58,583 nt of DNA from Sandaracinobacteroides sayramensis (GTDB taxonomy: Bacteria > Pseudomonadota > Alphaproteobacteria > Sphingomonadales > Sphingomonadaceae): the NCBI RefSeq assembly GCF_022014495.1, contig NZ_JAKLSQ010000010.1:128248-186830 (forward strand), in the 5' to 3' direction. The position numbers were made by a program, and so were the translations under genes. Every line of letters starts with the position of its first letter. Within the stretch, counting starts at the first letter, position 1. A model generated the notes under the pieces. The model had not been told where the DNA came from and searched no databases. It saw only the letters and a program-made list of their open reading frames with translations. This document shows, piece by piece, positions 7,600 through 55,398 of the stretch.

Positions 7600-8790
7600 T
7601 CAATCGGCTCGCGCGAATAGGAAAGCGGTGGCCTTGCTGAGGCCGTTGGAGATGGTGGCGAGCGAATGCTGCGCGCCTTCCACCTGCCGCTCCCCGGCCC
7701 GGCCGCTTACTTGCAGCACCGCCTCGGCTATCTGGGTCATGCCGTGCAGCCGGCCTTCGCCCAGCGCGCCGCCGCCGGTGTTGACGGGCAGGCTTCCGCT
7801 CAACGCGCCATGGCCGTCGCGGAGGAAGGCAAGCCCCTCTCCGTCCTTGCAGAAGCCCATGGATTCCAGCCAGGTGACGACCAGCATGCTGAAGCCGTCG
7901 TAAAGCTGGGCGCTGCCGACCTCGGCGGGGGAGAGGCCGGTGGTTTCCCACAACCGCTTCGCCACCTGCCGTCCGCCTTCCAGCATATGTTCCAGCGTCA
8001 TCGGAATGGCGCTGCCGCCATTGTGCGTGGAGGCGGCGAAGCCGGTGAGGAGCGCGGGTTTCCGGCGCAGGTCGCGGGCGCGTTCAGTGGTGGTGAGGAG
8101 CAGGGCGCAACTGCCGTCCACCGGCAGGTCGCAGTCCAGCATGGACACCGGGTCGGCGATCATGCGTGTGCTGAGATAGTCTTCGGCGCTGAGCGGCTTG
8201 TCGCGGCACCAGGCGTTCGGGTTGCGCCGGGCGTTGTCGCGGTTGTCGACGATGTAGCGGGCGAAATCGGCGCGGCTATATCCATGAAGCTCGAAATAGC
8301 GCCGCATCACCGTGGCAACCCAGGCGGGCGGCATGCTGAAGCCATAGGGGGCGAGGAACTGGTCGGGGCCGGTCGCAAAGGCGCTGTCGAAGTTCACATA
8401 GCGCCCGTCGGGCACGTGCAGGGCGCGGTAGACGAGGACATGCCGGCACAGGCCCGCTGCGATCGCCAGCGCGCCGTCGATCAGGCTTTGCGTCACCATG
8501 GCGTTGGTGCTGCCCGTCCAGGCGATCTGCGGCGCCACGCCCAGAAGCTCGGCAAGATAGTGCGGCGTCACCACGTCGACGCCTTCGTCGACGCCCTTCC
8601 GGCCACCATATCGCGGCATGCTGGGGGAGGTGGCGATGCCGTCCACCTCGCGCTGGTCGAGACCGGCATCGGTGAGCGCGGCCTTGCAAGCCTCCAGCGT
8701 CAGCGAGGCGAGCGTTCGGCCGCTGCGCCGGCCGATGGCGCTGTAGCCTACGCCGGCCACCGCGATTCGGTTCCGATGTTCCCAGATCAT
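7600..8790 (-). CDS. SCP2/Ltp-type thiolase-like protein (candidate aldolase)
   Basis: A 396-residue thiolase-superfamily protein. The nucleophilic Cys of true thiolases is absent: the corresponding stretch reads WTGSTNAMVTQS (91-102). The usual HDCF motif is LYDGF (Tyr297). Such proteins paired with DUF35 partners include the steroid side-chain retro-aldolases (Ltp2/ChsH2 type), where a Tyr at this position is catalytic, so an aldolase or acyl-handling role is more likely than thiolysis. The second Tyr of Ltp2 is apparently replaced: the stretch reads GEGRLHG, Arg347. Its ATG overlaps the TGA of the DUF35 gene (ATGA), which argues for a complex. It is last in the CoA-transferase/DUF35/thiolase-like operon. 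Confidence 0.75.
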   Translation of the reverse strand: MIWEHRNRIAVAGVGYSAIGRRSGRTLASLTLEACKAALTDAGLDQREVDGIATSPSMPRYGGRKGVDEGVDVVTPHYLAELLGVAPQIAWTGSTNAMVTQSLIDGALAIAAGLCRHVLVYRALHVPDGRYVNFDSAFATGPDQFLAPYGFSMPPAWVATVMRRYFELHGYSRADFARYIVDNRDNARRNPNAWCRDKPLSAEDYLSTRMIADPVSMLDCDLPVDGSCALLLTTTERARDLRRKPALLTGFAASTHNGGSAIPMTLEHMLEGGRQVAKRLWETTGLSPAEVGSAQLYDGFSMLVVTWLESMGFCKDGEGLAFLRDGHGALSGSLPVNTGGGALGEGRLHGMTQIAEAVLQVSGRAGERQVEGAQHSLATISNGLSKATAFLFARAD

Positions 8791-9221
8791 TGGCCGGTCG
8801 CCGGCTTGAACTGGACGAGGACGTGGCCCTCTCCGATGGGTTCGAAGACCGGAGTTAGCGGCATTCCCAGCCGCAGCGCGCTTTCCCCGGTGCCGAGGAT
8901 GTTGGCGGCGATGAGGAGGCCTTGCTGCGCCTCGGCTTCCGCCAGCCCCAGAATGAGCGGGAGCATGGTTTTGAAGCCCGGAGCGGGCGCATCGTGCAGA
9001 ACGGTCCAGGAATAGAGGCGGAGGCCGCCGGGCAGCGGCTGGAAGCCCAGTTCCTCGCTGCCGCAGGCCATGCAGGCGATGGCCGGCGGATGCTGCCAGC
9101 GCTCGCAGTATCGGCACTTCTGGATGCGCAGTTCACCGGCTTTCGCGCCCTCCCAGAAGCCGGCGCTGATCGCGTCCGGCCATGGCAGGGGGCGCAGCGG
9201 AATCTCGTCGGCCACGGCCAT
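8787..9221 (-). CDS. DUF35 OB-fold protein with zinc ribbon
   Basis: A 144-residue acyl-CoA-binding partner protein. An N-terminal helix is followed by a rubredoxin-like zinc ribbon with Cys36, Cys39, Cys50 and Cys53 (CRYC...CMAC) and then a C-terminal OB-fold (about 65-140). Such proteins commonly bind thiolase-like enzymes and channel CoA esters. It overlaps the thiolase-like gene by 4 bp and starts 5 bp before the end of the fused CoA-transferase gene, so the three genes are translationally linked. Confidence 0.8.
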   Translation of the reverse strand: MAVADEIPLRPLPWPDAISAGFWEGAKAGELRIQKCRYCERWQHPPAIACMACGSEELGFQPLPGGLRLYSWTVLHDAPAPGFKTMLPLILGLAEAEAQQGLLIAANILGTGESALRLGMPLTPVFEPIGEGHVLVQFKPATGQ

Positions 9222-9225
9222 CCCT

Positions 9226-11616
9226 TCAGGCCGAAACCGCAGAGGCAATGCGCCCTTCGACGTCCGCCGCCTGTATGGCGATGCGGCGCTCCAGCAGTTG
9301 CTCGATCTCGTCCGGCGTGTAGCCGATCTCGGCCAGGATGGCCCGGCTGTGATGGCCGAGGCGCGGCGCCGATCCGGCGGCGTGGCCGGGCGTTTTCGAA
9401 AGGCGGTTGAACAATCCGAATTCCCGGACATGGCCATACATGGAATTGCGTGTCTCGATCGCGCGGTTGCTTTCCACCATCCAGTCCTCGAACAGCGCGT
9501 CGTCGACCCATTGCTCTTCCCGCGCGATCTCGCAGGCAGCCCCTGCGGCGTCCAGCAGGCGGAAGGCATCCTGCGATGAAAGGGCGGCGAAAAATGGCGT
9601 GAGGATTTCGCGCAGTTCGCGGTCATGGGCGCTGCGCTCCTTCGGCCCGCTGAAGCGGCTGTCGCCGGCAAGCTCTTCGCGGCCGATTGCCCGCATGAGG
9701 GCGGCGAAGCGGTCGTCCTGCCGGCAACAGATGCACAGCCAGCCGTCGGCCGTGCGGTAGATGCGGTCGAGGGCGTTGAAGCCCTGTTGTTCGCGGTCGA
9801 GCCGCAGACCGTAGACGGGCTTCATCCCGGCATCGAGGAAATGCTCGGAGGTCGTCCACAGGCTGGAGTGGAGCTGCGGGCATTCGATATATTCGCCATA
9901 TCCGCGCTCGGCCCGGTTCTCCAGCGCCATCAGCAGCGCGGCGGCGCCGAGGAAACCGTTGTTGTAATCCTCGTTGCCGAAAACCGAGCGGTTCGGGCTG
10001 TTGCCCTCGCCCCCGCCCTCATAGAGCAGCCCGGTCCAGCCGCTGACCAGCGGGGCGAAGCTTTTGAGGAGCGATTTCGGGCCTTTGGAGCCATAGCCTG
10101 GAAGATAGGCGTAGATGAGATCGGGGTTGACGGCGGCGAGCGCCTCATAGCCGATGCCGAGCTTGTCGGCCTTTCCGGGGCGCAGATTGTGGGTGACGAT
10201 GTCGGCGGTGGCGACGAGCCGGTGGGCGACGGCAAGCCCCTCGGGCGTCTTCAGGTCGAGCACGATGTTGCGCTTGCCGCGCTGGCAGGCGTCGAACACG
10301 TCGGGCAACGGGCGCATCTGGTCCCCCGATGGGGTTTCGACCTTGATGACATCGGCGCCGAGGTCGTTCAGCAGGCGCCCGCCGAAGCCGACGGCGAAGA
10401 AGGAGGAGAAGTCGACCACGCGCACGCCTTCGAGCGCCCGCCGGATCGGGCGGGTCGCGGGAAATGCCGGCTTCGCCGGGCGGGCGGCGAGCGCTGGCAG
10501 CCGCTGGTTGTGCTGGCCGACGAGCGGCGCGGGGGCAGGTGTGGAGACCTGCGTTCGGGAAAAGCGCACGGCGGGTGCGGCCTGATGGATGGTGCCGAAA
10601 TCCGGGTCGGCGAGCGCAATCCGCATCTTCACGAACTCGACCTGATCATCCAGCAGGATTTCCGCCGGTTCCAGCACGGGGAGGGCAGCGACGTCCGCCG
10701 CGTGGAAGAGCCGGATCCATTCGTCGCGCGGCTTCGTGCGGAACACATCGAAGATCTCGACGCGGCTGCATTGATATTCGTCGTCGTCGAGCGGCACCGC
10801 CATTTCCGGCCCCTGCACCGCGCGGACCCGCACGCCGAAGCCGAGGATGTCCATCGCCGGCTTGAAGCCGCCCGAGCCGGTGTGGATTTGCAGGAACTTG
10901 CCGTCGCCGCATTCGAACATGGTGGTGACCAGCCGCACACGGCCGAAACGGTCCGGCGAGCCGGAATCGCCCTTTTTGATGTAGGAGATGCCGTCTTCCT
11001 GCCACCAGTGGTTCATCGGGCTTTGCGCCAGCATCGCGTCCAGAAGCGAGGCTTCGACAAGCTGCCCCTCGCCGATCGAGCGGCGGGCGCGTAGGGCGGA
11101 CAGAATGCCGATCACCGCCAGGAAGGCCTGCCCGTAATGCAGGGCGGGGTGGCCCAGATACATGGGGCCGTCGCGGTGGGAACTGCCCTTGTCGATCATC
11201 GTTCCCAGCAGGGCGGCGGCGAGGGATTCGCCATAGGGGCGCGCGGCAAAAGGCGTTTCCCGGTTGTAGGCCAGCAGGTTGCAGACGATCAGTTGCGGGA
11301 AGCGCTTTTCGAGGCTGGCCGCATCCAGGCCGAGCGCGCACGCCTCCTCTTCCCCGAAGGCGTGCAGGAATACATCCGCGCCGCGCAGGAGGTCGAACAG
11401 GCTTGCCAGTTGTTCCTCGTCGGCGAAATCCAGTTCCACGCTGATCTTGCCGCGATCCCAGCCCTTTCTGGACAGGTCGTGGGCGAAAAAGCTTCCGCCG
11501 AGCGGTTCGACCTTGATGACTTCGGCGCCATGGTCGGCGAGCAGCATGCCGGCGATGGCGCCGGGCATGACGAACGCCGCTTCGACGACGACAAGATGCT
11601 CCAGCGGACCGGACAT
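9226..11616 (-). CDS. Fused double-domain CaiB/BaiF CoA-transferase, copy 1
   Basis: A 796-residue fusion of two class III CoA-transferase domains (about 1-370 and 393-796); family members are usually near 400 residues and work as interlocked dimers. In the N-terminal half the position of the catalytic Asp is His160 (ALHYGQAF); the C-terminal half keeps Asp550 (FGNEDYNNG). One half therefore appears to supply the active Asp. The expected reaction is transfer of CoA to a carboxylic acid, or epimerisation/isomerisation of a CoA ester. GGGGAGAG lies upstream of the ATG. It heads the operon with DUF35 and thiolase-like genes. A close paralogue lies at 49843-52245. Confidence 0.85.
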   Translation of the reverse strand: MSGPLEHLVVVEAAFVMPGAIAGMLLADHGAEVIKVEPLGGSFFAHDLSRKGWDRGKISVELDFADEEQLASLFDLLRGADVFLHAFGEEEACALGLDAASLEKRFPQLIVCNLLAYNRETPFAARPYGESLAAALLGTMIDKGSSHRDGPMYLGHPALHYGQAFLAVIGILSALRARRSIGEGQLVEASLLDAMLAQSPMNHWWQEDGISYIKKGDSGSPDRFGRVRLVTTMFECGDGKFLQIHTGSGGFKPAMDILGFGVRVRAVQGPEMAVPLDDDEYQCSRVEIFDVFRTKPRDEWIRLFHAADVAALPVLEPAEILLDDQVEFVKMRIALADPDFGTIHQAAPAVRFSRTQVSTPAPAPLVGQHNQRLPALAARPAKPAFPATRPIRRALEGVRVVDFSSFFAVGFGGRLLNDLGADVIKVETPSGDQMRPLPDVFDACQRGKRNIVLDLKTPEGLAVAHRLVATADIVTHNLRPGKADKLGIGYEALAAVNPDLIYAYLPGYGSKGPKSLLKSFAPLVSGWTGLLYEGGGEGNSPNRSVFGNEDYNNGFLGAAALLMALENRAERGYGEYIECPQLHSSLWTTSEHFLDAGMKPVYGLRLDREQQGFNALDRIYRTADGWLCICCRQDDRFAALMRAIGREELAGDSRFSGPKERSAHDRELREILTPFFAALSSQDAFRLLDAAGAACEIAREEQWVDDALFEDWMVESNRAIETRNSMYGHVREFGLFNRLSKTPGHAAGSAPRLGHHSRAILAEIGYTPDEIEQLLERRIAIQAADVEGRIASAVSA

Positions 11617-11769
11617 CGCACTCTCCCCATGATTCGGCTTGTTGCGGGGAATATGCCTGCCGGTTTCCGTGGTGGCAATTAAAATTAGTCATATGTAAAT
11701 TTTTTACGAGGCTGGCATCTGGTCTCTGTGACGGACTTCGTTCATCAGGTGCGCGAGGGGACCGAATGG
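11617..11769. promoter_or_regulatory. Divergent promoter region CoA-transferase/TetR
   Basis: A 153-bp gap between divergent genes with a conspicuously AT-rich patch (about 11676-11707) containing CATATG flanked by AAAATTA and TAAATTTT, a near-symmetrical arrangement. This is the likely promoter/operator area for the TetR regulator and the CoA-transferase operon. The Shine-Dalgarno for the TetR gene is GAGGGG, 9 nt before the ATG at 11770. Confidence 0.35.
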
Positions 11770-12465
11770 ATGCGTGTCAGGAGCAAATCGAAGGACGGCT
11801 ATGCGAGCGCGGCGATGGCGGAGCGCCGGCGGCGTATCTTCGAAACGACGCGCGAGCTGATGTCAGAACAGGGGGTCGACGGCTTCAGCGTCAACGAGGT
11901 GTGCCGCCGCGCCGGGGTCGCGCGGCAGACGATCTACCAGCGCTATGGCACGCGCGACGATCTGATGGCGGCGGCCATGCTGGACCTTTTCGAGCGTTCG
12001 GAAAGCCTGATCCCCTATCACCATCCGCCGGGATCGCTGGAGCGGCTGATCGAGCGGATGGTGGGGATCGGCACGCGCAACCTGGGCATGCGGGGCTATA
12101 TCGCAGCCCTTACCGCTTTCTATTTCAACCCCGCTTCCAGCCGGGAATTGCGCGCGGCGATGCATGCCATCACCAGCCTGTCGCAAAGGCCCTATGTGGA
12201 AAAGCTTGCCGATTCAGGGCTTTTGCAGCCCTGGATGACAGTGGAGCAATTGCTGACCGATCTGGACGCGCAGCGGATGATCGTGGTCAGCCAATGGGTA
12301 AACGGGCAATTGCCCGACGAGCGGATGATCGATGCGATGGTGAAGACGCTCCTCACCTATCTGCTTGGCTGTGTGCGGCCTACGGCCCAGCAGGATATCA
12401 GCCACACCCTGCTTTGCGTGCACGAGCAGGGGGCCGCCGCCTTCTTGCGATCGTCGAGTGTTTGA
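11770..12465 (+). CDS. TetR/AcrR family transcriptional regulator
   Basis: A 231-residue TetR-type repressor. The helix-turn-helix is at about residues 30-55 (VNEVCRRAGVARQTIYQRYGTRDDL). The remainder is an alpha-helical ligand domain. ATG 11770 is preferred over a GTG at 11728 because only the former has a Shine-Dalgarno. It is divergent from the fused CoA-transferase operon and co-directional with the CitE-like gene 97 bp downstream, so it probably controls one or both. A CoA ester ligand is plausible but not shown. Confidence 0.85.
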   Translation: MRVRSKSKDGYASAAMAERRRRIFETTRELMSEQGVDGFSVNEVCRRAGVARQTIYQRYGTRDDLMAAAMLDLFERSESLIPYHHPPGSLERLIERMVGIGTRNLGMRGYIAALTAFYFNPASSRELRAAMHAITSLSQRPYVEKLADSGLLQPWMTVEQLLTDLDAQRMIVVSQWVNGQLPDERMIDAMVKTLLTYLLGCVRPTAQQDISHTLLCVHEQGAAAFLRSSSV

Positions 12466-12562: not shown

Positions 12563-13414
12563 ATGACGGATTTCCGCCCGCGCCGCTCGGTGCTTTATCT
12601 TCCCGCCGCCAATGCGCGCGCGATCGAAAAGGCGAGGGGGCTTGCCGCCGATGCGGTGATCCTGGACCTGGAGGATGCCGTGGCGCCTGAGGCCAAGGAC
12701 AGCGCCCGCGAGGCCGCCGTGGCGGCGATCGCCGCCGGCGGCTGGGGCCGGCGGGAAATGCTGGTGCGGGTGAACAGCCTTGCGACCGCCTGGTCGGAGG
12801 CGGATTTCGCAGCGGTCGCGGCTTCGGGCGCCGATGGCGTGGTGGTGCCCAAGGTGGATGGGCCGGAAGATGCGGCGAAGGCGGTGGCGCTGGCCGGCGG
12901 CAAGCCGGTGTGGGCGATGATCGAGACGCCGCGCGCGGTGCTGCTGGCGGAAGCGGTGGCGACGACGCCGGGCGTGGCGGCGCTGGTGGCGGGTTTCGCC
13001 GATCTGGCGAAGGATCTGCGGGCGAAGCCCGGCCCGGACCGGCTGCCGCTGATCTTCTCCGCCAGCCGCATCCTGCTGGCGGCGCGGATGGCGGGGATTC
13101 CGGCCTTCGACGGCGTCTACACCGACATTCGCGATCCCGCCGGGCTGGAGGCCGAGGCGCGGCAGGGGCTGGAACTGGGCTTCGACGGCAAGACCTGCAT
13201 CCACCCCGACCAGATCGAGGCGGTGAACCGCATCTTCTCGCCAAGCGAGGCGGAAGTGGAGGACGCGCGTGGGCTGATCGCCGCGCATGAGGCCGCCGCC
13301 GCCGAGGGCAAGGGGGTCGCCACCTTCAAGGGCAAGCTGGTGGAGGTGCTGCACGTCGCCGAGGCGCGGCGGACGCTGAGCGTTTCCGAGGCGATCGCCG
13401 AACTCAGGGGCTGA
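12563..13414 (+). CDS. HpcH/HpaI (CitE-like) lyase, candidate citramalyl/malyl-CoA lyase
   Basis: A 283-residue TIM-barrel protein of the CitE/Mcl family. It shows RRSVLYLPAANARAIEKA at the N-terminus, VILDLEDAV (metal/acid site, about 33-41), MIETPRA (about 120) and CIHPDQI near residue 213. The length fits single-chain citramalyl-CoA or malyl-CoA lyases (CLYBL/Ccl size). The family cleaves 3-hydroxy-3-carboxyacyl-CoA to acetyl-CoA or acetate plus a 2-oxoacid. The Mct and Meh genes in the same window make citramalyl-CoA the most interesting candidate substrate; that is inference. GAAGGA precedes the ATG. The 3' end overlaps the convergent cofC by 11 bp. Confidence 0.78.
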   Translation: MTDFRPRRSVLYLPAANARAIEKARGLAADAVILDLEDAVAPEAKDSAREAAVAAIAAGGWGRREMLVRVNSLATAWSEADFAAVAASGADGVVVPKVDGPEDAAKAVALAGGKPVWAMIETPRAVLLAEAVATTPGVAALVAGFADLAKDLRAKPGPDRLPLIFSASRILLAARMAGIPAFDGVYTDIRDPAGLEAEARQGLELGFDGKTCIHPDQIEAVNRIFSPSEAEVEDARGLIAAHEAAAAEGKGVATFKGKLVEVLHVAEARRTLSVSEAIAELRG

Positions 13415-13985
13415 CGGGCTTTCGGAACAGCGGGCTGCCAAGCGACGCGGCGCGCCGGATGTCGTCCGGCGTGTCGATGTCGAGCGCGAAGCCGGAGCGT
13501 TTGATGACCAGCGGCTCGCCGGGGTTGCTGGCGCGGTGGCGGGCGAAGCTGTCGGCGCCGAACTGGAAGTCGAACGGCGTATGCGCCGGGATGGCGACGG
13601 CGTTGGTGCCGAGGCCGTGCCGGTCCGGCGCGATTGCCCAGTTGCCGGCGTCGGCGGTGATGGCGGCCACATCGGCTTCGCTCAGAAGCGGCAGGTCGGC
13701 GTGGACGACGAGGACCGGGGCTTGCGCGAGCGAACGGTGGGCGGCCGCCAGTTCCGGGTTGAGACCGCGCCCGTGGTCGGCGATCCATTCGCCTTGCCAG
13801 AAGGCCGGGGGTTGCTGACACAGCAACAGGATGCGGCCGATAGCGGGGCTTTGCTCCAGCACGCGCAGCACATGCGCCAGAAGCTGCTCGCTGAGGCTGG
13901 TGCGTTCGTCCGCCGCCAAATCCTCGGCCAGCCGGCTCTTGCGGTCTCCGGCCGGTTTCAGCGGGACGAGCGCCGTCCAGTTCAA
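13404..13985 (-). CDS. cofC: CofC: 2-phospholactate (or 3-PG/PEP) guanylyltransferase
   Basis: A 193-residue nucleotidyltransferase of the CofC/FbiD family. It makes the GDP-activated three-carbon acid (2-phospholactate, 3-phosphoglycerate or PEP, depending on organism) that CofD attaches to FO in coenzyme F420 synthesis. Visible features are the N-terminal VPLKPAGDRKSRL loop, VHADLPLL (acidic metal-binding motif, around residue 95) and HGLGTNAVAI. No ATG fits: the start is TTG at 13985, overlapping the cofD stop (TTGA), which suggests coupled translation. It is the last gene of cofE-cofD-cofC. Confidence 0.85.
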   Translation of the reverse strand: MNWTALVPLKPAGDRKSRLAEDLAADERTSLSEQLLAHVLRVLEQSPAIGRILLLCQQPPAFWQGEWIADHGRGLNPELAAAHRSLAQAPVLVVHADLPLLSEADVAAITADAGNWAIAPDRHGLGTNAVAIPAHTPFDFQFGADSFARHRASNPGEPLVIKRSGFALDIDTPDDIRRAASLGSPLFRKPVSP

Positions 13986-14911
13986 GGCGCGACCGAAGCG
14001 GCGAGCGCGAGGGCGGCGCGGGCGACCCGCACCCGGTCGTCCAGCGTCTGCATCAGCGTGTCCGTCCGCGCGTACGGCATGTGGATGTCGGCCGGCGGGT
14101 CGCGGTCGTCCAGAAGCAGGGCGTCCGCTATTCCCTGATAATGGCGGGCGATGGCCGCGGCGTTCACCTCCAGCCCCAATTCCCGCATCAGCTTGGCGGT
14201 CGGGCCTTTCACCGCCTGGCCGCCGGGAATGGGGGAAACGGCGACTATGGGGGCCGACGCCTGCCGGAGCGCCTCGCGGATGGCAGGGATAGCCAGTAAC
14301 GGATCGACGCTGAGGAAAGGGTTGGATGGCGCGATCAGGATGGCGTCGGTTTCCGGGGAGAGCAGGGCTTCCACCACGCAGGGGGCTGGTCTGGCGGTGG
14401 CGGCGCCGGCGAATTCCACGCTGCGCACGACGGGCTGGCAGCGGCGTTCGACGAAGTAGCGCTGGAAATCCAGCCGGCCTTCGTCGGTGACGAGTTGCGT
14501 TGCGACTATGTCGTCGCTCATCGGCAGGATGCGGGCGCCGATGCCCCATTTGCGGGCGAAATCGGCGGTGATGGCGGACAGCGACTCTCCGGCGGCGAGC
14601 CTTGCCGTTCGGAGGACGTGCAGCGCGAGGTCGCCGTCTCCCAGCGCGAACCAGTCTTCGCCGCCCAGCGAGCGCAGCGCCTCCATGAAGGCCCAGCTTT
14701 CGCCCTCCCGCCCCCAGCCCTGCGCGGCGTTGGCCTTGCCGGACAGCGTGTAGAGCAGCGTGTCTATATCGGGCGAGATGGCGAGGCCGAAGTGGCGGAA
14801 GTCGTCGGCGCTGTTGACGATGGCGGTGACGTCGGCCGCGGGAAGGGCGTGGATCAGGCCGAGGACGAGCTTGGCGCCGCCGACGCCGCCGGTGAGGACG
14901 ACGCTCTTCAT
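13982..14911 (-). CDS. cofD: CofD: 2-phospho-L-lactate transferase family
   Basis: A 309-residue CofD/FbiA-type enzyme, which transfers the phospho-three-carbon acid moiety from its GDP ester to FO to form F420-0 or dehydro-F420-0. Hallmarks are the N-terminal TGGVGGAKLVLGL loop, NSADDFRHFGLAISPDIDT (about 33-51), LPMSDD and APSNPFLSVDPLL (about 200). Start and stop overlap cofE and cofC by 4 bp each. The length is normal. No FO synthase (CofG/CofH or FbiC) is in the window, so FO must be made elsewhere or salvaged. Confidence 0.93.
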   Translation of the reverse strand: MKSVVLTGGVGGAKLVLGLIHALPAADVTAIVNSADDFRHFGLAISPDIDTLLYTLSGKANAAQGWGREGESWAFMEALRSLGGEDWFALGDGDLALHVLRTARLAAGESLSAITADFARKWGIGARILPMSDDIVATQLVTDEGRLDFQRYFVERRCQPVVRSVEFAGAATARPAPCVVEALLSPETDAILIAPSNPFLSVDPLLAIPAIREALRQASAPIVAVSPIPGGQAVKGPTAKLMRELGLEVNAAAIARHYQGIADALLLDDRDPPADIHMPYARTDTLMQTLDDRVRVARAALALAASVAP

Positions 14912-15660
14912 CGGAACAGATCCTCGGAGAGCGGGCGGATGAGGTCGGCGGCGGGGCGCGCGGGCACCGACCAGTGGAAGCCGCGCACCAGCACCGCCGG
15001 GATACCTTCCGCGCCTTCGCCCATGGCGAGGCCGGCGGCGCTGGCGATCATGTCGCCCAGCGCCATCTGCGTTACTTCCAGCGGCCGGCCGTCGCGGTCC
15101 GGCTCTCCGCGCCGGTCGAGGAGGCTGGGGAAGCCGCTGGCGCCGACCGCGACATTGGTGGTGCCGTAGCGCCAGGGCCGGCCGAAACTGTCGGAGACGA
15201 CGACGGCGGGCGGTTCGGGCCAGCGGGCGCCAAGCGCTTCGCGCAGGGCTTCGGCCGAGCGGTCCGGGTCGAGCGGCAGCAACAGGGCCAGGTCGCCTTC
15301 CTGGCCGAGGTTGGAGCGGTCGATCCCGGCGTTCGCCATCACATGCCCCGTGCGGTGGCGGGTGATGAGCACATGCGGCGCGGCGCGGACGATGCCGACG
15401 CTTTCGTCCAGCACCAGTTGCACCAGCCGTGCGTCCTTTCGCACCTTTTCCGCCAGCTCGACGGCTTCGGCGGTTGGCTGCACGGTGGCGAGGTCGGCGA
15501 AGCGGCCTTCCGCCTTGGAGACGATCTTGGAGGTGACGACCAGCACATCGTCGGGCCGGGCGTCCGGCACGGTGGCGGCAAGGGCGTCGGAAAGCGTCGC
15601 GCCCAGCGCGCAGCCGGGCAGGATTTCGCCGATGCCGCCGAGCGGGTGGATTCGGATCAT
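14908..15660 (-). CDS. cofE: CofE: coenzyme F420-0:L-glutamate ligase
   Basis: A 250-residue CofE-type ligase that adds glutamates to F420-0. Motifs are the N-terminal HPLGGIGEILPG, VVTSKIVSKAEGR (about 44-56), ITRHRTGHVMANAGIDRSN (about 102-120) and SDSFGRPWRYGTTNVAVG (about 160-177). It is the stand-alone form, without the C-terminal FMN-reductase domain of actinobacterial FbiB. It is first in the cof operon and divergent from the FadJ-type gene. A TGCA-N6-TGCA dyad lies 58 bp upstream of its ATG. Confidence 0.93.
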   Translation of the reverse strand: MIRIHPLGGIGEILPGCALGATLSDALAATVPDARPDDVLVVTSKIVSKAEGRFADLATVQPTAEAVELAEKVRKDARLVQLVLDESVGIVRAAPHVLITRHRTGHVMANAGIDRSNLGQEGDLALLLPLDPDRSAEALREALGARWPEPPAVVVSDSFGRPWRYGTTNVAVGASGFPSLLDRRGEPDRDGRPLEVTQMALGDMIASAAGLAMGEGAEGIPAVLVRGFHWSVPARPAADLIRPLSEDLFR

Positions 15661-15717: not shown

Positions 15718-15731
15718 TGCAGTTGAGTGCA
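15718..15731. promoter_or_regulatory. Candidate operator TGCA-N6-TGCA between cofE and the FadJ gene
   Basis: TGCAGTTGAGTGCA lies in the 198-bp divergent region, 58 bp before cofE and about 128 bp before the FadJ start. It shares the TGCA-N6-TGCA frame with 22040-22053 and 49671-49684, although its inner bases are not symmetrical and no TTGAC -35 stands beside it. Confidence 0.35.
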
Positions 15732-15858
15732 AAAACTGTTGTCGCTTTTCCGGGCGGGTGATAAGCGGACGGCGAAGACTTGGGAGAGCTCGTGCCGCAG
15801 GACCATGGGGCGGACGGGCGGCAATCGCAATCAGCCGAATGGCGCCGAGGAGGATAGC

Positions 15859-17952
15859 TTGAACGCAACCGGAAACCCCGCAGTAACCTCGGTCGTGACC
15901 TGGGCGAACGAGGGCGGCATTGCCGTCGTCACCGTCAACTCGCCGCCGGTGAACGCGCTTTCGGCGGCCGTGCGCGGCGGGCTGAAGCAGGCGTTCGAAG
16001 CGGCGGCGGCCGATCCGGCGGTGGAGGCCGTGGTGCTGATCTGCGAAGGGCAGACCTTCATGGCCGGCGCCGACATCAGCGAATTCGGAAAGCCGCCGGT
16101 TTCGCCCAGCTTCCGCGAAGTGCAGGACGTGATGGAAGCGACCGGCAAGCCGGTGGTGATGGCGATCCATGGAACGGCGCTGGGCGGCGGGCTGGAGATC
16201 GCGCTGGTCGGCAACTATCGCATCGCCGTGCCGTCCGCGAAGCTGGGGCTGCCGGAAGTGAAGCTGGGGCTGCTGCCCGGTGCCGGCGGCACGCAGCGGC
16301 TGCCGCGCGTGGTGGGGGTGGAAAAAGCGCTGGCGCTGATCACCAGCGGCGACCAGGTGCCGGCGAAGGAAGCGCTGAAGATCGGGCTGCTGGACGCGCT
16401 GGCCGAGGAGGGCCATCTGAAGCGCGACGCGCTGGCCTTCGCGCGCGCGGTGCTGGCCGAAAAGCGGCCGCTGAAGCGGGTGGGCGATCTGGGCGACAAG
16501 CTGGCCGAAGTGCGCGGCAAGCCCGAGGTTTTCGCGGAGTTCCGCAAGGCGAACGCCCGCAAGTTCCGGGGCTTTGAGGCGCCGGAAGCGATCATCCGCT
16601 GCATCGAGGCGGCGGTTGACCTGCCGCTGGAAGAAGGGCTGGTTTTCGAGCGGGCGCGGTTCGAGGAACTGAAGGTCGGCTCGCAATCGGCGGCGCAGCG
16701 GCATTATTTCTTTGCCGAGCGGCAGGCCGCGAAGGTGCCGGACGTGCCCGCCGACACGCCGCTGCGCGACATTCAGACGGTGGGCGTGCTGGGCGCGGGC
16801 ACCATGGGCACCGGCATCGCCATGTCGTTCCTGAACGGCGGGTTCCGCGTGCGGCTGCTGGAAACCAGCGAGGCGGCGCTGGAGCACGGCACCGGAATCA
16901 TTCGCAAGACCTATGAAGGCAATGTGGCGCGCGGGCGCATGTCTGATAAGGATTTCGACGGGCGGCTGGCGCAACTGACGCCCACGCTCGATTACGCCGA
17001 TCTCGCCGACTGCGACCTGATCGTGGAAGCGGTGTTCGAGCAGATGGACATCAAGAAGCAGGTGTTCGCGAAGCTGGACGCGGTGGCGAAGCCCGGCGCC
17101 ATCCTCGCCACCAACACCTCCTATCTGGACGTGAACGAGATCGCCGCCGCCACGAAGCGGCCGCAGGATGTGATCGGCCTGCACTTCTTCTCGCCCGCGC
17201 ATATCATGCGGCTGCTGGAAGTGGTGCGGGGCAGCGAGACGGCGAAGGATGTGATCGCCACGTCGATGAAGCTGGCGCGCCGGATCGGCAAGGTGCCGGT
17301 GCTGGTGGGTGTGTGCCACGGCTTCGTCGGCAACCGAATCCACCTGCAACGGCAGACGCAGGCCGAGCGGATCGTGCTGGAAGGCGCCACGCCCTGGCAG
17401 GTGGACGCCGTGCTGGAAGGCTTCGGCCTGCCCATGGGGCCGTTCCGCATGCGCGACATGGCGGGGAACGACGTGGGCTGGAACCGCGAGACTTCGTCGT
17501 CGGCGACGGTGCGGGAAATCCTGAACGAGATGGGCCGGCACGGGCAGAAGAGCGGCGCCGGCTATTATGATTACGATGCCGGCCGCAAGCCGACCCCTTC
17601 GGAGATTTCGCTGAAGGTGATCCGCGATTTCGCCGCCGCCAGGGGCATCGCCCAGCGCGAGATTCCCGACGAGGAGATTTTCGAGCGCTGCCTCTATGTG
17701 ATGGTGAACGAGGGCGCGAAGATCCTGGAAGAGGGCATCGCCAGCCGGGCTTCTGACATCGATGTGGTGTGGGTGACCGGCTATGGCTGGCCTGTCTATC
17801 GCGGCGGGCCGATGTTCTGGGGCGAACTTGTGGGGCTCGACCGGATTTCCGCCCGCCTTTCCGAACTGGCCGCTCTCCATGGCGACAGCTTCCAGCCCGC
17901 CGCCCTGCTTCAGCGCCTTGCCGCCGAAGGCAAGGGTTTCGCCCAGGCCTAG
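15859..17952 (+). CDS. Bifunctional enoyl-CoA hydratase/3-hydroxyacyl-CoA dehydrogenase (FadJ-type)
   Basis: A 697-residue fusion. The N-terminal crotonase domain (about 10-200) has the oxyanion loop TFMAGADISEF, GTALGGGLEIAL and candidate catalytic Glu113 and Glu133. The middle Rossmann domain starts with GAGTMGTG (about 312-319), and the 3-hydroxyacyl-CoA dehydrogenase part has LHFFSPAHIM with its catalytic His and a final helical repeat. It hydrates trans-2-enoyl-CoA and oxidises the resulting L-3-hydroxyacyl-CoA with NAD. The start is TTG at 15859, with AGGAGG 5 nt upstream. An acyl-CoA dehydrogenase gene follows 44 bp later. Confidence 0.88.
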   Translation: MNATGNPAVTSVVTWANEGGIAVVTVNSPPVNALSAAVRGGLKQAFEAAAADPAVEAVVLICEGQTFMAGADISEFGKPPVSPSFREVQDVMEATGKPVVMAIHGTALGGGLEIALVGNYRIAVPSAKLGLPEVKLGLLPGAGGTQRLPRVVGVEKALALITSGDQVPAKEALKIGLLDALAEEGHLKRDALAFARAVLAEKRPLKRVGDLGDKLAEVRGKPEVFAEFRKANARKFRGFEAPEAIIRCIEAAVDLPLEEGLVFERARFEELKVGSQSAAQRHYFFAERQAAKVPDVPADTPLRDIQTVGVLGAGTMGTGIAMSFLNGGFRVRLLETSEAALEHGTGIIRKTYEGNVARGRMSDKDFDGRLAQLTPTLDYADLADCDLIVEAVFEQMDIKKQVFAKLDAVAKPGAILATNTSYLDVNEIAAATKRPQDVIGLHFFSPAHIMRLLEVVRGSETAKDVIATSMKLARRIGKVPVLVGVCHGFVGNRIHLQRQTQAERIVLEGATPWQVDAVLEGFGLPMGPFRMRDMAGNDVGWNRETSSSATVREILNEMGRHGQKSGAGYYDYDAGRKPTPSEISLKVIRDFAAARGIAQREIPDEEIFERCLYVMVNEGAKILEEGIASRASDIDVVWVTGYGWPVYRGGPMFWGELVGLDRISARLSELAALHGDSFQPAALLQRLAAEGKGFAQA

Positions 17953-19382: not shown

Positions 19383-21077
19383 TCAGTTCCCCTCGTCCAA
19401 TAGCCGCCGGGCGATCACCTGCGCCTGAATCTCGCCCGCGCCTTCGAAGATGTTCAGGATACGGGCGTCTGCCAGCAGGCGGCTGACCGGATATTCGGTG
19501 GCGAAGCCGTTGCCGCCGTGGATCTGCAGGGCGTTGTCGGCGGCGGCCCAGGCGACGCGGGCGGCGACCAGCTTCGCCATTCCGGCTTCCAGATCGCAGC
19601 GCTTGTCCTCGTCCTTGCGGCGGGCGGCGAAATAGGTGAGCTGGCGGGCGCCCATGATCTCGGCCGCCATCATCGCCAGCTTGTTGGCGACGCGGGGGAA
19701 TTCGAAGATCGGGCGGGCGAACTGCCGGCGGTCGAGCGCGTAGGAGAGGCCGACGTCGAGCGCCGCCTGCGCCACGCCGACGGCGCGGGCGGCGGTCTGT
19801 ATTCGGGCGCTTTCGAAGGTGGCCATCAACTGCTTGAAGCCCTGGCCTTCGACGCCGCCCAGCAGGTTGGCGGCGGGAACGGCGAAGGAGTCGAAGCCGA
19901 TCTCATATTCCTTCATGCCGCGATAGCCGATCACCTCGATCTCGCCGCCGGTCATGCCTTCGGCGGGGAAGGGCGTGTCCACCGTGCCGCGCGGCTTGGG
20001 GGCGATCAGCATGGAGAGGCCGCGATGGTCCGTGGTGTCGGGGTTGGTGCGGACGAGGAGCGTCATCACGTCGGCGCGCGCGGCGTGGGTGATCCAGGTC
20101 TTGTTGCCGGAGACAAGATATCGCGCGCCGTCGCGCGTGGCGCGGGTGCGCAGCGCGCCGAGGTCGGAGCCGGTGTCGGGCTCGGTGAAGACGGCGGTGG
20201 GGAGAATGGCGCCGCTGGCGATCTCCGGGATCCATTGCCGCTTCTGCTCGGGCGTGCCGCCGCCCAGGATCAGTTCGGCGGCGATTTCCGAGCGGGTGGC
20301 GAGCGAGCCGACGCCGATCCAGCCGCGCGAAAGCTCTTCCGAAACGACGCACATCGCCGTCTTGCCCATGCCGAGGCCGCCGAAGGCTTCGGGGATGGTC
20401 ATGCCGAACACGCCCATTTCGGAAAGCTCGTCGACGAGGTCGATGGGGATCAGCTCGTCCGCCAGATGCCATTGGTGGGCGTGGGGGCGGACCTTTTCGT
20501 TCGAAAAGGCGAAGAATTGTTCGCGCACGAGGGTGAGCGTCTCGTCGAGGCCGCTGTCTTCCAGCGTGGCGCGGCCCTGCGCGTCCGCCAGATGCCGGGC
20601 GATGGCGGTTTTCACCGCCTGCATGCCGCCGAGCCGGATCAGTTCGCCGAGCGCCGAGGATTGCAGATGCGCGAGCGCGACGGGGTCGTCGGAAAGCTGG
20701 TGCGGGCGGATGGTCTCGCCCTGGTTCATCGGGATTCCGCCCCGAAGCTGGGCAGCATATTCCGCGAACAGCAGTTGCGCCAGCAGCGCCTCGATTTCGG
20801 TGAGGCGGCCGGCGGTTTCCAGTTCGCGCACCCAGTCCGCCACTTCGCGGAGCAGCTCGGCGTAGCTCGCCACCCAGCCGAAGCCATGCACCAGATGCTG
20901 CTCGGCGTCGGCGCGGTTGCGGTCGATCCGGCCGTCGGCGGTGGAGAGGCGGGCGCGGAGTTCGGAACGGACCGCCGCCGACCAGGCCTGCGCCGCGCTG
21001 GCGGCTTCGGCCAGGCGGGCGGGAAGGCCGGGGAGAATCAGCTGATCGTCCTGCACTTGCGCCGCTGCCGTTGCCAT
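19383..21077 (-). CDS. mcd: Methylsuccinyl-CoA dehydrogenase-like (Mcd) enzyme
   Basis: A 564-residue acyl-CoA dehydrogenase with an N-terminal extension of about 170 residues, too long for ordinary family members but typical of (2S)-methylsuccinyl-CoA dehydrogenase of the ethylmalonyl-CoA pathway. The linker GGIPMNQGETIRP (113-125) resembles that family. The dehydrogenase core (about 175-564) has FTEPDTGSDLGAL, GNKTWITHA, HGGNGFATEYPV and C-terminal FEGAGEIQ. The expected reaction is methylsuccinyl-CoA to mesaconyl-(C1)-CoA with electron transfer to ETF. It is last in the minus-strand operon with an enoyl-CoA hydratase, CoA-transferase, thiolase and others. Substrate identity is from memory of the family and needs phylogeny. 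Confidence 0.72.
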   Translation of the reverse strand: MATAAAQVQDDQLILPGLPARLAEAASAAQAWSAAVRSELRARLSTADGRIDRNRADAEQHLVHGFGWVASYAELLREVADWVRELETAGRLTEIEALLAQLLFAEYAAQLRGGIPMNQGETIRPHQLSDDPVALAHLQSSALGELIRLGGMQAVKTAIARHLADAQGRATLEDSGLDETLTLVREQFFAFSNEKVRPHAHQWHLADELIPIDLVDELSEMGVFGMTIPEAFGGLGMGKTAMCVVSEELSRGWIGVGSLATRSEIAAELILGGGTPEQKRQWIPEIASGAILPTAVFTEPDTGSDLGALRTRATRDGARYLVSGNKTWITHAARADVMTLLVRTNPDTTDHRGLSMLIAPKPRGTVDTPFPAEGMTGGEIEVIGYRGMKEYEIGFDSFAVPAANLLGGVEGQGFKQLMATFESARIQTAARAVGVAQAALDVGLSYALDRRQFARPIFEFPRVANKLAMMAAEIMGARQLTYFAARRKDEDKRCDLEAGMAKLVAARVAWAAADNALQIHGGNGFATEYPVSRLLADARILNIFEGAGEIQAQVIARRLLDEGN

Positions 21078-21078
21078 C

Positions 21079-21966
21079 TCAGCCTTCCCCCGCTTGCTTC
21101 TTGTTCGCGGCGGCCATGGCTTTCGCGTCCAGGCCGCCGACCAGATGCCCGGTGGTCAACTGGTTATGGGCATGGGCCAGATGGTGCATGTGGAACACGC
21201 CGTCCATCGCCGTGCGCTTGCCGCGCAGGTCTTCGACGAGATTGACCGCCTGCTTGGTCAGCGCCAGGCCGAAACGCTCGTGCGCGGCGATCTGGCCGGC
21301 GATGCGGGCGACTTCGGCGCGAAGCTCGGCGCGCGGGACGACGCGGTTCACCATGCCATATTGATAGGCCCGCTCGGCCGGCATGCGCTCGCCGAGGTAG
21401 AGCAGTTCGCGGGCGACGCGCGGCGGCAGCTCGAAGGCGTGGGCGAAATATTCGACGCCCGGCGAGGCCATGCGGACGACCGGATCCTGGAAGAAGGCGT
21501 CGTCGGACGCGATGATGAGGTCGCAGACCCAGGCCAGCATCAGCCCGCCGGCGATGCAGCCGCCCTGCACCATGGCGATGGTGGGCTTGGGGATCGCCTG
21601 CCAGCGGCGGCAGAGGCCGAGATAGCCGTCCTGCTCCAGCACATATTGCCGCTCGGCGCCGCCCTTGTTGCTGTGATCCCACCAGAGATCCTTGCGCTCG
21701 CGTTCGAACTGGCTGTCCTTCTCGGGGGTGCCGATGTCGTGGCCGGCGGAGAAATGCTTGCCCTCGCCGCCCAGCACGATCACCTTCACCTCGTCGTCGT
21801 CGACCGCGCGGCGGAAGGCGTCGTCCAGCTGGTTCAGAAGGCGATAGTTCTGCGCGTTGGAATATTGCGGGCGATTGAGCATCACCCAGGCAATTTTGTC
21901 CTCCACGCGGTAGGTTACATATTCCGGCGTTTCGGGCGCATCGGTTTGGGTGGCTTCGGTGGCCAT
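21079..21966 (-). CDS. Enoyl-CoA hydratase/isomerase family protein
   Basis: A 295-residue crotonase-fold protein. It has an FSAGHDIG oxyanion-hole segment (about 72-79), a long insert with DLWWDHSNKGG, then VQGGCIAGGLMLAWVCDLIIA (second oxyanion loop) and DPVVRMASPGVEYFAHAFELPPR. The insert and C-terminal His-rich helix (FHMHHLAHAHNQ) set it apart from plain enoyl-CoA hydratases, so hydratase, hydrolase or isomerase activity are all possible. One base separates its stop from the ATG of the following gene on the minus strand (mcd). Confidence 0.8.
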   Translation of the reverse strand: MATEATQTDAPETPEYVTYRVEDKIAWVMLNRPQYSNAQNYRLLNQLDDAFRRAVDDDEVKVIVLGGEGKHFSAGHDIGTPEKDSQFERERKDLWWDHSNKGGAERQYVLEQDGYLGLCRRWQAIPKPTIAMVQGGCIAGGLMLAWVCDLIIASDDAFFQDPVVRMASPGVEYFAHAFELPPRVARELLYLGERMPAERAYQYGMVNRVVPRAELRAEVARIAGQIAAHERFGLALTKQAVNLVEDLRGKRTAMDGVFHMHHLAHAHNQLTTGHLVGGLDAKAMAAANKKQAGEG

Positions 21967-22033
21967 GGCTTCAAGTCTCCCTCGAACGAATCGCGGGCGG
22001 TAGCCGGTTGTCCGTCCTTGGCCGCCCTATTTT

Positions 22034-23284
22034 CTAATCTGCACTATTGTGCAAATTTGCTTTCGGGTCAACCAGGGCTCCGCTTTCGACCAGCGTGGAA
22101 AGCTCGGCTTCGTCGAGGTTCAGCCATTCCCGAAGCAGTTCCGGGCCTTGCTCGCCGACGCGCGGCGGCTCGTAACGGTAGCTGACGGGTGTCCTCGACA
22201 ATTTGCCGGGGAAGGCGACGCTCGGGATTTCGGTGCCGTCGGCGCGCCGGAACTGGTGGACGGTGTTACGAGCCTCCACGAAGGGGTCGGCGAAGACCTC
22301 GTCGATATTGTTCACAGGGCCGCCGGGCACGCCGCAGACGGCCATCCGCTCCAGAAGCGGGCCGCCTTCGCGGTTCTGCACCAGTTCCTGGACCCTGGCT
22401 TCGATTTCCTCGCGGTTGATGAGCCGCGCGCGGCTGGTGGCGAAGCGGGGGTCGGTGCCGAGTTCCGGCACGCCCAGTTCGGTGCACAGCGCCCGGAACT
22501 GGCCATCGTTGCCGACGGCGATGACGATGGTGCCGTCCGCCACTTCGAACGTCTTGTAGGGAACCACCGTCGGGTGGCGGTTGCCGAGCCGTCCCGGCAC
22601 GATGCCGCCGACCAGCCAGCTCATCCCCTGGTTGGCGAGCATGGCGATCTGCGTGTCCAGCAGCGACAGGTCGATCTGCTGGCCTTCGCCGGTGCGCTCG
22701 GCGTGGCGCAGCGCCATCAGGATGGAAACGGTGGCGTACATGCCGGTGGACAGGTCGGCCATGGCCACTCCGGCGCGCAGGGGCTGGCCGCCTTCCTCGC
22801 CGGTGATGCTCATGAAGCCGCCCATGGCCTGCGCCACGAAATCATAGCCGCCGCGCGCGGCATAGGGGCCGGTCTGGCCGAAGCCGGTGACCGAGCAATA
22901 GACGAGGCGCGGGTTGATCGCCTTCAGCGTTTCATAGTCGAGGCCATATTTCTTCAGGCCGCCGACCTTGAAATTCTCCACCAATATGTCGGCCTCGGCC
23001 GCGAGGCGGCGGATGACCGCCGCGCCTTCGGGGTTCGAGAGATCGATCGCCGCCGAGCGCTTGTTGCGGTTGCAGGCGAGATAATAGGCGCTCGTCCCGA
23101 TCTCGTCCCCGCCGTCCACCTGCAGATAGGGCGGCCCCCAGGCGCGGGTGTCGTCGCCCTTGCCGGGCACTTCCACCTTCAGCACATCGGCGCCGAAGTC
23201 GGCGAGGATCTGGGTGCACCATGGCCCGGCCAGCACGCGGGAAAGGTCGAGAACGCGAATACCGTCGAGCGCACCCATGCTCAT
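22034..23284 (-). CDS. CaiB/BaiF family CoA-transferase
   Basis: A 416-residue class III CoA-transferase of normal length. It shows the N-terminal LDGIRVLDLSRVLAGPW, NRNKRSAAIDL (about 72-82), the catalytic Asp177 in VAMADLSTG and ERTGEGQQIDLSLLD. It transfers CoA between a donor acyl-CoA and a carboxylic acid; the identity of both is unknown. Its ATG overlaps the stop of the cytochrome c gene (ATGA), and it lies among beta-oxidation genes, so it may activate the pathway acid or a short intermediate. Confidence 0.86.
   Translation of the reverse strand: MSMGALDGIRVLDLSRVLAGPWCTQILADFGADVLKVEVPGKGDDTRAWGPPYLQVDGGDEIGTSAYYLACNRNKRSAAIDLSNPEGAAVIRRLAAEADILVENFKVGGLKKYGLDYETLKAINPRLVYCSVTGFGQTGPYAARGGYDFVAQAMGGFMSITGEEGGQPLRAGVAMADLSTGMYATVSILMALRHAERTGEGQQIDLSLLDTQIAMLANQGMSWLVGGIVPGRLGNRHPTVVPYKTFEVADGTIVIAVGNDGQFRALCTELGVPELGTDPRFATSRARLINREEIEARVQELVQNREGGPLLERMAVCGVPGGPVNNIDEVFADPFVEARNTVHQFRRADGTEIPSVAFPGKLSRTPVSYRYEPPRVGEQGPELLREWLNLDEAELSTLVESGALVDPKANLHNSAD
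22040..22071 (-). promoter_or_regulatory. Putative promoter with TGCAC-N4-GTGCA operator before the hydratase gene
   Basis: Reading the minus strand: TTGACC (-35, 22066-22071), 17 nt, then AATAGT (-10, 22043-22048) centred in TGCACAATAGTGCA (22040-22053). The same geometry occurs at 49671-49702. It overlaps the last codons of the CoA-transferase gene and would drive the hydratase and mcd, 74 bp upstream of the hydratase ATG. Confidence 0.45.
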
Positions 23285-23673
23285 TTCGTCGGAGCTTTCA
23301 TATAGGCGATGAGATTGGCGCGATCCTCGGGCTTGGGAACGCCGACGAACGCCATGCGGTTGCCGGGAATCTGCTTCATCGGCTTTTCGAGGAAGGCGTC
23401 GAGCGTCGCCGGATCCCAGGTGAGGCCGGCCTTCTTCATCGCCGGGGAATAGTTGAAGCCGGGAACGGTCGCCGATTTGCGGCCGACGATTCCGTTCAGC
23501 GACGGGCCGATCTTGTTCACGCCGGGCTTCATGTCGTGACAGGCCACGCAGCGGTTATAGACCGCCTTGCCCTTCAACGGGTCGCCGGCCGTCTGCGCCG
23601 ATGCGGCACCCGCCAGCGCCAGGGACGCCACGCCCAGCAGCTTCAGGCCAGCGGGCACGAAGCGGATATTCAT
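23281..23673 (-). CDS. Class I c-type cytochrome (cytochrome c2-like)
   Basis: A 130-residue periplasmic monohaem cytochrome. It has a Sec signal (residues 1-27, ending ASAQ), the haem motif CVACH (Cys42, Cys45, His46), GPSLNGIVGRKS and the axial Met107 in GNRMAF. The start at 23673 has GAGAGGAAA upstream. It is unusual in lying between a thiolase and a CoA-transferase gene, with a 4-bp overlap to the latter. It could accept electrons from the periplasmic PQQ dehydrogenases of this window. Confidence 0.87.
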   Translation of the reverse strand: MNIRFVPAGLKLLGVASLALAGAASAQTAGDPLKGKAVYNRCVACHDMKPGVNKIGPSLNGIVGRKSATVPGFNYSPAMKKAGLTWDPATLDAFLEKPMKQIPGNRMAFVGVPKPEDRANLIAYMKAPTK

Positions 23674-23730
23674 TGCTTTCCTCTCCTCTTCCATGCCCCG
23701 CTTATTGGTCCGTGCCGATGAACACAGGCT

Positions 23731-24939: not shown

Positions 24940-24956
24940 CTGGTCTGTCTCCCGGT

Positions 24957-26105: not shown

Positions 26106-26150
26106 CCCATTCTCCCCAGGCCGGTTGTCAGGCCCGGCCTTCTAGCGAAG

Positions 26151-26190
26151 GCCCTGCTGTGCCGACAGTCCTCTCAATCGACAGCAGGGC
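26151..26190 (-). promoter_or_regulatory. Long inverted repeat in the leader of the acyl-CoA dehydrogenase operon
   Basis: GCCCTGCTGT (26151-26160) and ACAGCAGGGC (26181-26190) are perfect 10-bp arms around a 20-nt loop, 46 bp upstream of the ATG and just downstream of the putative -10. It may be an operator, an mRNA leader hairpin or a terminator for the upstream operon; it has no U-tract. Confidence 0.4.
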
Positions 26191-26218
26191 TGTAACCCGC
26201 GCCTTCCCATGGCGTCAA
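26190..26218 (-). promoter_or_regulatory. Putative promoter TTGACG-17-TTACAG
   Basis: On the minus strand, TTGACG (26213-26218) is 17 nt from TTACAG (26190-26195). It lies in the only sizeable gap of the 31.7-19.4 kb minus-strand block and would start transcription of the operon from the 24957-26105 acyl-CoA dehydrogenase to mcd. Confidence 0.4.
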
Positions 26219-26230
26219 TAAAAATGCACC

Positions 26231-26262
26231 TATGGGTAATATTCGCTTATGGATAATATTCG
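26231..26262. repeat. Tandem 17-bp duplication covering the meh stop codon
   Basis: TATGGGTAATATTCG (26231-26245) and TATGGATAATATTCG (26248-26262) are offset by 17 bp with one mismatch. On the coding strand both copies read Glu-Tyr-Tyr-Pro-stop (TAA in the gene, TAG in the extra copy), so the end of meh has been duplicated outside the reading frame. Confidence 0.6.
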
Positions 26263-29289: not shown

Positions 29290-29315
29290 GTCTCTCCCCT
29301 CGATTGTCCGGCGGT

Positions 29316-30428: not shown

Positions 30429-30434
30429 CTGCGG

Positions 30435-41003: not shown

Positions 41004-41005
41004 CT

Positions 41006-41203: not shown

Positions 41204-41213
41204 CTGTCCCTCC

Positions 41214-52245: not shown

Positions 52246-52254
52246 GGCACTGAC

Positions 52255-55395: not shown

Positions 55396-55398
55396 GGC

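Follow-up and report, generated by a model that had tools for sequence, protein, structure and literature searches.

What are assembly genes for coenzyme F420 doing in the middle of a catabolic region of a sphingomonad? The question is raised by a stretch of 58,583 nucleotides of Sandaracinobacteroides sayramensis (assembly GCF_022014495.1, contig NZ_JAKLSQ010000010.1, positions 128,248 to 186,830), which we call the window and which carries the genes cofE, cofD and cofC. The contig, here C2, measures 422 kb (the window being C2:128248–186830), and the genome 3.82 Mb at 99.96% completeness; genes are named g001–g089 after a simple gene finder that covered the window plus some 60 kb of contig around it. 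We find it probable, at roughly two chances in three, that this bacterium makes and reduces F420 for a sphingomonad acyl-CoA catabolic island, as a dedicated and probably co-regulated component of it, and that a luciferase-like (LLM) enzyme of the island uses the cofactor.

The interval 13404–15660 of the window is filled exactly by three open reading frames (g028–g030, from cofC to cofE):

14908–15660, minus strand: cofE, coenzyme F420-0:L-glutamate ligase, 250 aa; TIGR01916, 242.5 bits (cut-off 180.65)
13982–14911, minus strand: cofD, 2-phospho-L-lactate transferase, 309 aa; TIGR01819, 303.6 bits (cut-off 257.45)
13404–13985, minus strand: cofC, 2-phospho-L-lactate (or phosphoenolpyruvate, PEP) guanylyltransferase, 193 aa; TIGR03552, 130.9 bits (cut-off 105)

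Judged by these curated NCBIfam equivalog cut-offs, all three identities of the original prediction hold, as do its start-to-stop overlaps. Both overlaps are 4 bp long, ATGA between cofE and cofD and TTGA between cofD and cofC, the start codon of cofC being TTG in a frame open from 14009. CofD has a single match in the whole genome. CofE covers only positions 13–243 of the 449-residue FbiB-type model NF009810 and, with its 250 aa, is not fused to the C-terminal dehydro-F420 reductase domain of FbiB.

No FO synthase lies inside the window, as had been stated. A check of the genome for FO synthase found a fused one (CofGH/FbiC) on the same contig at C2:195544–197937, 8.7 kb past the window end and 51.6 kb from cofE, scoring 1098.6 bits with NF006687 (CofGH equivalog, cut-off 1018). 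Its end is overlapped by g071, the NADPH:F420 reductase NpdG (TIGR01915, 224.3 bits, cut-off 149.8). With CofC, CofD, CofE, FbiC and NpdG in one genome, the predicted F420 pathway is complete; because FbiC is present, the lack of any FO synthase, named beforehand as a finding that would speak against the idea, is not the situation here. Split-barrel F420 reductases (PF04075) gave no match in the genome, and 14 control genomes likewise gave none. The enzyme families, the fused FO synthase and NpdG/Fno are shared with the bacterial F420 pathway of Actinobacteria, Paracoccus and Oligotropha, as set out in the accessible part of PMC8498797, according to which F420 biosynthesis is known in some Alphaproteobacteria. 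The set here differs from that pathway in that CofE is without the FbiB C-terminal domain, and in that cofEDC stand apart from fbiC–npdG and come from another lineage, both parts lying in a catabolic island.

The residues of CofC bear on the type of F420 that would be made. In the accessible part of PMC8764529, our source for the residue roles, Ser (or Thr) at the position of Gly163 of Mycobacterium tuberculosis FbiD is the mark of a CofC of the 3-phosphoglycerate (3PG) type; the 3PG-type structure 7p97 indeed deviates there, with Ser. In an alignment with M. tuberculosis FbiD (6bwg), with positions counted by hand, CofC of the window has Gly at this position, within the motif FGADSF, and also agrees with Leu92, Asp116, Thr148, Ser166, Asp188 and Asp190. 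Of the eight substrate-contact residues listed for FbiD, CofC matches seven; the eighth, Lys17, falls outside the alignment. With Gly instead of Ser, CofC looks to be of the 2-phospholactate/PEP type and classical F420 is predicted; the 3PG-F420 variant, earlier offered as something to check, appears unlikely. The locus resembles the 3PG-F420 pathway of Mycetohabitans in being a set of cof genes in a Gram-negative host but differs from it in this Gly, as far as that pathway is described in the same part of PMC8764529.

The Pfam families of the neighbouring genes agree with the CoA-ester catabolic setting proposed for the cof genes:

12563–13414, plus strand: g027, CitE-like HpcH/HpaI lyase (PF03328, below the TIGR01588 cut-off), convergent with cofC with an 11-bp overlap
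15805–17952, plus strand: g031, enoyl-CoA hydratase / 3-hydroxyacyl-CoA dehydrogenase (ECH-HCDH; PF00378, PF02737, PF00725), divergent from cofE
19383–31439, minus strand: g033–g043, conserved catabolic block (by Pfam, g036 excepted), with counterparts in genome G204 and other islands
40683–42440, minus strand: g049 and g050, ferredoxin-like by sequence reading only, and g051, cytochrome P450 (PF00067)
45208–45846: g053, flavin reductase-like gene
49843–52245, plus strand: g057, double CoA-transferase family III protein (PF02515), upstream of g058
52255–53259, plus strand: g058, LLM oxidoreductase (PF00296), candidate F420-linked enzyme
53271–53900, plus strand: g059, SnoaL-like protein (PF13577), adjoining g058
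C2:202223–203197, outside the window: g074, LLM enzyme

The block g033–g043 comprises acyl-CoA dehydrogenases (including the pair g042/g043), an enoyl-CoA hydratase, CoA-transferases, a thiolase, a MaoC-like protein and a zinc-type reductase, and six acyl-CoA dehydrogenase-family proteins were counted altogether (g032, g033, g038, g042, g043 and g067). The surroundings also hold CoA-transferases (g025 and the double g057), hydratases, thiolase-like proteins (one with a zf-ChsH2 partner), the P450, pyrroloquinoline quinone (PQQ) dehydrogenases including g056, aldehyde dehydrogenases, transporters, the TonB receptor g044 and, two genes from g058, an SMP-30-like possible lactonase.

The island recurs, with F420 genes embedded, in other sphingomonads (handles in G stand for genomes, those in L for sequence stretches). 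For 40 genes of C2 the best match in 100 kb of G204 reached at least 45% (median 72%, the matches not all one-to-one), with fbiC–npdG at the centre of the syntenic block. Parts of the island surround fbiC–npdG–cofE–cofD–cofC in Novosphingobium sp. SG707 (L088) and Sphingomonas sp. 67-36 (L089), and a related island in G137 has fbiC–npdG inside. G319, G361 and G089 share a run fbiC–npdG(–cofE)–P450–g050–g043–g042 onward, with a g058-type LLM gene divergent from it, and G209 has cofD–cofC–P450–g050–g043–g042 onward; in these four genomes, homologs of the P450 g051 (58–60% identity) lie at most 230 bp from F420 genes. The nine best outside matches of g042 (54–61%) were all in CofD-positive genomes, the tenth (G015, 50%) not. 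A TetR-type gene stands directly upstream of fbiC in G204 (L067:14239–14994) and in L088 (9231–9947); no counterpart was found in the examined stretches of C2.

Two LLM enzymes of the island may use the cofactor. Of these, g074 passes the cut-off of TIGR03619 (F420-LLM, F420_Rv2161c) with 207.6 bits against 166.9 and has the F420-dependent Mer as its closest solved relative, whereas g058 fails it with 87.2 bits and passes none of the F420 models matched. Relatives of g058 at E ≤ 1e-50 nevertheless occurred in 19 of 397 genomes of the family, all 19 among the 56 that are CofD-positive (hypergeometric p 2e-17 with the own genome left out; by genus 12 of 12 others, p 2e-8), counts that ignore shared descent and genome size. 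Among 75 partly overlapping locus groups, an LLM gene was found no further than 1.5 kb from F420 genes in 28 with g074 as the better query and in 2 with g058. The own genome has 8 LLMs, 6 of them on other contigs, and F420-negative congeners have 9 in 4 genomes. Four more luciferase-like genes stand in one 22-kb stretch of the own genome (C17:94776–116526).

A palindrome joins the promoters of F420 and catabolic genes:

15718–15731, no strand: TGCA-N6-TGCA in the promoter region between the divergent cofE and g031, candidate shared operator
49671–49684, no strand: TGCA-N6-TGCA between g056, a PQQ dehydrogenase gene, and the divergent g057–g058–g059
11728–12465, plus strand: g026, TetR-family regulator (PF00440)
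46753–47370, minus strand: g055, TetR-like regulator, 35–37% identical to g026, with a counterpart in G204 at 63%

Three more intergenic sites lie upstream of g064 (TonB-receptor-like by sequence reading), between g069 and fbiC, and between g071 and g072 (the g074 operon). The 117.5 kb hold 7 sites, 5 of them within 11.2 kb of intergenic sequence; in 300 dinucleotide-shuffled versions of the intergenic sequence the mean was 0.15 sites and the maximum 2. Of the 16 spacings tried, 6 stands out with its 5 intergenic sites, the next best having 2, the motif having been found in the same data on which it was then tested. Similar palindromes stand in the divergent promoter regions of cofE and of fbiC. 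Palindromes of 14 bp formed 11 pairs, as compared with a mean of 2.5 and at most 8 in 15 shuffles; pairs of 16- and 18-bp palindromes were no more frequent than in shuffles. Exact sites were present in 5 of 22 related stretches, 8 sites in total and all outside the parts that match C2 genes: upstream of g072 and of g064 in G204, beside g056 and before fbiC in L089, beside g056 in L220, before g034 and before g069 in L206, and behind cofC in L207, in the same place as in the close relative G204. In the divergent position next to g056, L089 and L220 carry a g059 homolog, without g057–g058. The palindrome is likely the operator of a TetR-type regulator, g026 or g055; the start of the latter is probably further upstream, up to 47493, the short form having no Pfam match at 1e-5. 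The conserved island, the co-occurrence of g058 relatives with CofD and the shared palindrome support the original prediction in linking F420 to catabolism.

The two halves of the F420 gene set differ in ancestry. In G204, L088 and L089 cofEDC follow directly behind npdG and are only 30–56% identical to those of the window; here this usual place is empty, leaving a gap of 216 bp. A remnant of such lineage-A cof genes behind npdG was sought by tblastn of CofC, CofD and CofE from G204 on stretches of the contig, which returned only the window copies. Trees of CofC, CofD and CofE, proposed beforehand as a check, were run together with those of FbiC and NpdG; they were quick trees, and the groups were named after the trees had been seen. 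The CofD of nine lineage-A rows formed a clade (97*), and forcing the window CofD into it cost 100.9 log units (p-AU, the P value of the approximately unbiased test, 8e-5). The nine lineage-A CofE rows lay apart in the free tree, fitted better when held together (p 0.81), and to add the window CofE to them cost 109.9 log units (p 9e-5). The window FbiC, in turn, fell into a 12-row clade (99*) with lineage-A genomes, and forcing it into the other, 35-row clade cost 138.8 log units (p 1e-6). The nearest NpdG rows are of lineage A and the nearest CofC rows of lineage B, without a starred set; for these two proteins we ran only the first type of one-clade test, whose groups also cut through their own kin. 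The placements of CofD, CofE and FbiC indicate, as far as sequences can, that fbiC–npdG, of the island's usual lineage, and cofEDC, of lineage B, are of different history and that the set is chimeric. Similar splits are seen in G171, G217, G207 and G330, which pair an FbiC of the window's clade with a lineage-B CofD, and the reverse in G177, G340 and G289.

F420 genes are patchy in the family, as they had been described for proteobacteria. CofD was found in 56 of 397 genomes (54 above cut-off), and in 1 of 6 of the genus; FbiC was also found in 56 at E ≤ 1e-150 (53 above cut-off). The two occur together in 55 genomes, CofD standing alone in G345 and FbiC in G278, and G022, G207, G154 and G380 each have two CofD matches and two FbiC genes. 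A frequent order among 40 CofD loci is fbiC–npdG–cofE–cofD–cofC, with an LLM gene adjoining in part. The assumed sphingomonad origin agrees with the FbiC segments of Sphingobium fontiphilum (L160) and Sphingomonas sp. Root710 (L162), which are identical to those of genomes of the same family.

Under the favoured reading, FbiC would make FO, CofC and CofD would attach to it a linker derived from 2-phospholactate or PEP, CofE would add glutamates, and NpdG would use NADPH to load the F420 with hydride. An island LLM, g074 as the one most like known F420 enzymes and/or g058, would then use reduced F420 on a pathway intermediate. The substrate may be alicyclic or branched and be broken down via the P450 or a PQQ dehydrogenase, an aldehyde dehydrogenase, CoA activation and beta-oxidation-like steps. 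The SMP-30-like protein, the P450, the PQQ dehydrogenases and the thiolase-like/ChsH2-type proteins hint at a cyclic or branched skeleton; a terpenoid would be our guess.

Several results weigh against this reading. Island stretches of 15–20 kb in G016, G160 and G192 are without F420 genes, which are present elsewhere in those genomes, and at E ≤ 1e-80 the g042 family shows no enrichment in CofD-positive genomes (11 of 58 CofD-positive, p 0.25). A match of g074 at E ≤ 1e-60 was found in only 3 of 397 genomes (the own, G204 and G308), all CofD-positive, and none of g058 at E ≤ 1e-50 in G204, G308 or G209, so F420-gene islands exist without g058. The F420 islands share no single LLM, which makes the reading somewhat weaker. 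The predicted fold of g074 fails to distinguish between F420 and flavin mononucleotide (FMN) relatives; for both g074 and g058 the two classes match, and the fold was set aside as a means of choosing between the cofactors. By profile, sequence and predicted fold g058 is FMN-like, with FMN luciferases as its nearest solved structures, and the flavin reductase-like g053 could serve it. As for the palindrome, an exact site is missing from 17 of the 22 related stretches, and even when one mismatch is allowed none turns up in the fbiC promoter stretches of G204, L088 or G137, the first two having the TetR-type gene before fbiC instead; the site at cofE, lying in a divergent promoter, may serve g031 only.

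The alternative that survives best concerns g058 itself, which may be an FMN-dependent Baeyer–Villiger-like monooxygenase fed by g053, its co-occurrence with F420 genes arising only from shared kinds of pathway. This is quite possible, and the nearest solved relatives (FMN luciferases and PuwE), 3,6-diketocamphane monooxygenase among the fold matches, g053, and the SMP-30-like possible lactonase two genes away all fit it; we lean against it because all 11 genomes with only 33–44% identical g058 relatives are CofD-positive and 10 of these 11 are not among the ten that hold the closest g042 dehydrogenases. The opposite and bolder proposal, that a transferable sphingomonad island carries a co-regulated F420 module whose halves swap between lineages and in which g058 founds an F420-dependent, FMN-looking LLM branch, strikes us as rather doubtful; in it, TGCA-N6-TGCA would be a candidate operator that two LLM operons and the acquired cofEDC share with fbiC.

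Alternatively, F420 could be a general redox cofactor for detoxification or stress, as in mycobacteria, and its position in the island an accident of gene transfer. The patchiness in the family, the FO synthase genes that are also plasmid-borne (59 records), the genomes in which island and F420 genes lie apart and the 6 LLMs on other contigs would all suit this, but we hold it unlikely, as related islands in several genomes contain F420 genes in varied orders and of varied lineages, fbiC–npdG lies in mid-block in G204 and the palindrome joins the promoters of fbiC and the LLM operons. We hold it very improbable that cofEDC are a leftover, redundant or without function, and that the cells make no F420: their distance from fbiC, their other lineage and the trace production reported for two other alphaproteobacteria in the accessible part of PMC8498797 are outweighed by intact frames above curated cut-offs, the single CofD match, the conserved contact residues of CofC and the joint presence of CofD and FbiC in the family.

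Catabolic clusters with an NpdG-type F420 reductase and F420-using enzymes degrade picrate and other nitroaromatics in Rhodococcus and Nocardioides. To our knowledge those clusters are without F420 biosynthesis genes, and the island here differs from them in its CoA-ester chemistry. Among the matches listed in the open-access literature, searched by title and abstract, none described a sphingomonad catabolic island with its own F420 supply; coenzyme F420 is merely listed among the predicted cofactor pathways of Novosphingobium strains in the accessible part of PMC13318209, and in 2021 the F420-dependent enzymes outside archaea and actinobacteria were called unstudied and experiments were called for (PMC8498797, accessible part). 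The enzymes here are an ordinary F420 set and the cofactor itself is already known; it is the setting that is unusual and informative. What F420 does beyond archaea and actinobacteria becomes a gene-level question in aerobic bacteria, with a conserved island, the candidate enzymes g058 and g074, a candidate operator and clean knock-out targets as handles.

Plasmid 2 of Aromatoleum aromaticum EbN1 (NC_006824) shares gene types with the island, having fbiC–npdG–cofE–cofD–cofC with an enoyl-CoA hydratase gene behind cofC; unlike here, it is one compact cluster flanked on both sides by insertion sequences, with no LLM annotated in 18 kb and a pyridoxamine 5'-phosphate oxidase family gene before fbiC. 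On the megaplasmid of Sphingobium sp. TomMM7A (AP027312.1; L227, 14893–32199) a citryl-CoA lyase gene and a block of acyl-CoA genes come after fbiC, and further Sphingobium Tom strains have fbiC on plasmids. The accessible main text of a paper on tomatine-degrading Sphingobium of tomato roots (PMC10653915) mentions no F420, FO synthase or luciferase, and no substrate could be derived from it. A CitE-like gene touches cofC in the window, and in L187, L056 and L190 one stands no more than 1.5 kb from F420 genes.

Behind npdG, C2:198617–198832 contains a long near-perfect hairpin by eye (CATGTCGCGCGCA...TGCGCGCGACATG), without an obvious T run. At C2:192291–195309 an acyl-CoA dehydrogenase, an SDR and an APH-like kinase are adjacent (g067–g069), an arrangement that we take to resemble the kinase/dehydrogenase sets for 4-hydroxyacyl-CoA breakdown. 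Parts of the island are doubled, at 7600–11616 and 49843–56535, with two double CoA-transferases, two LLM/SnoaL pairs and two related TetR-like regulators. The Thiolase_C_1 proteins are doubled as well, each with a small partner gene, one zf-ChsH2 and the other without a Pfam match, as if two forms of the island had merged.

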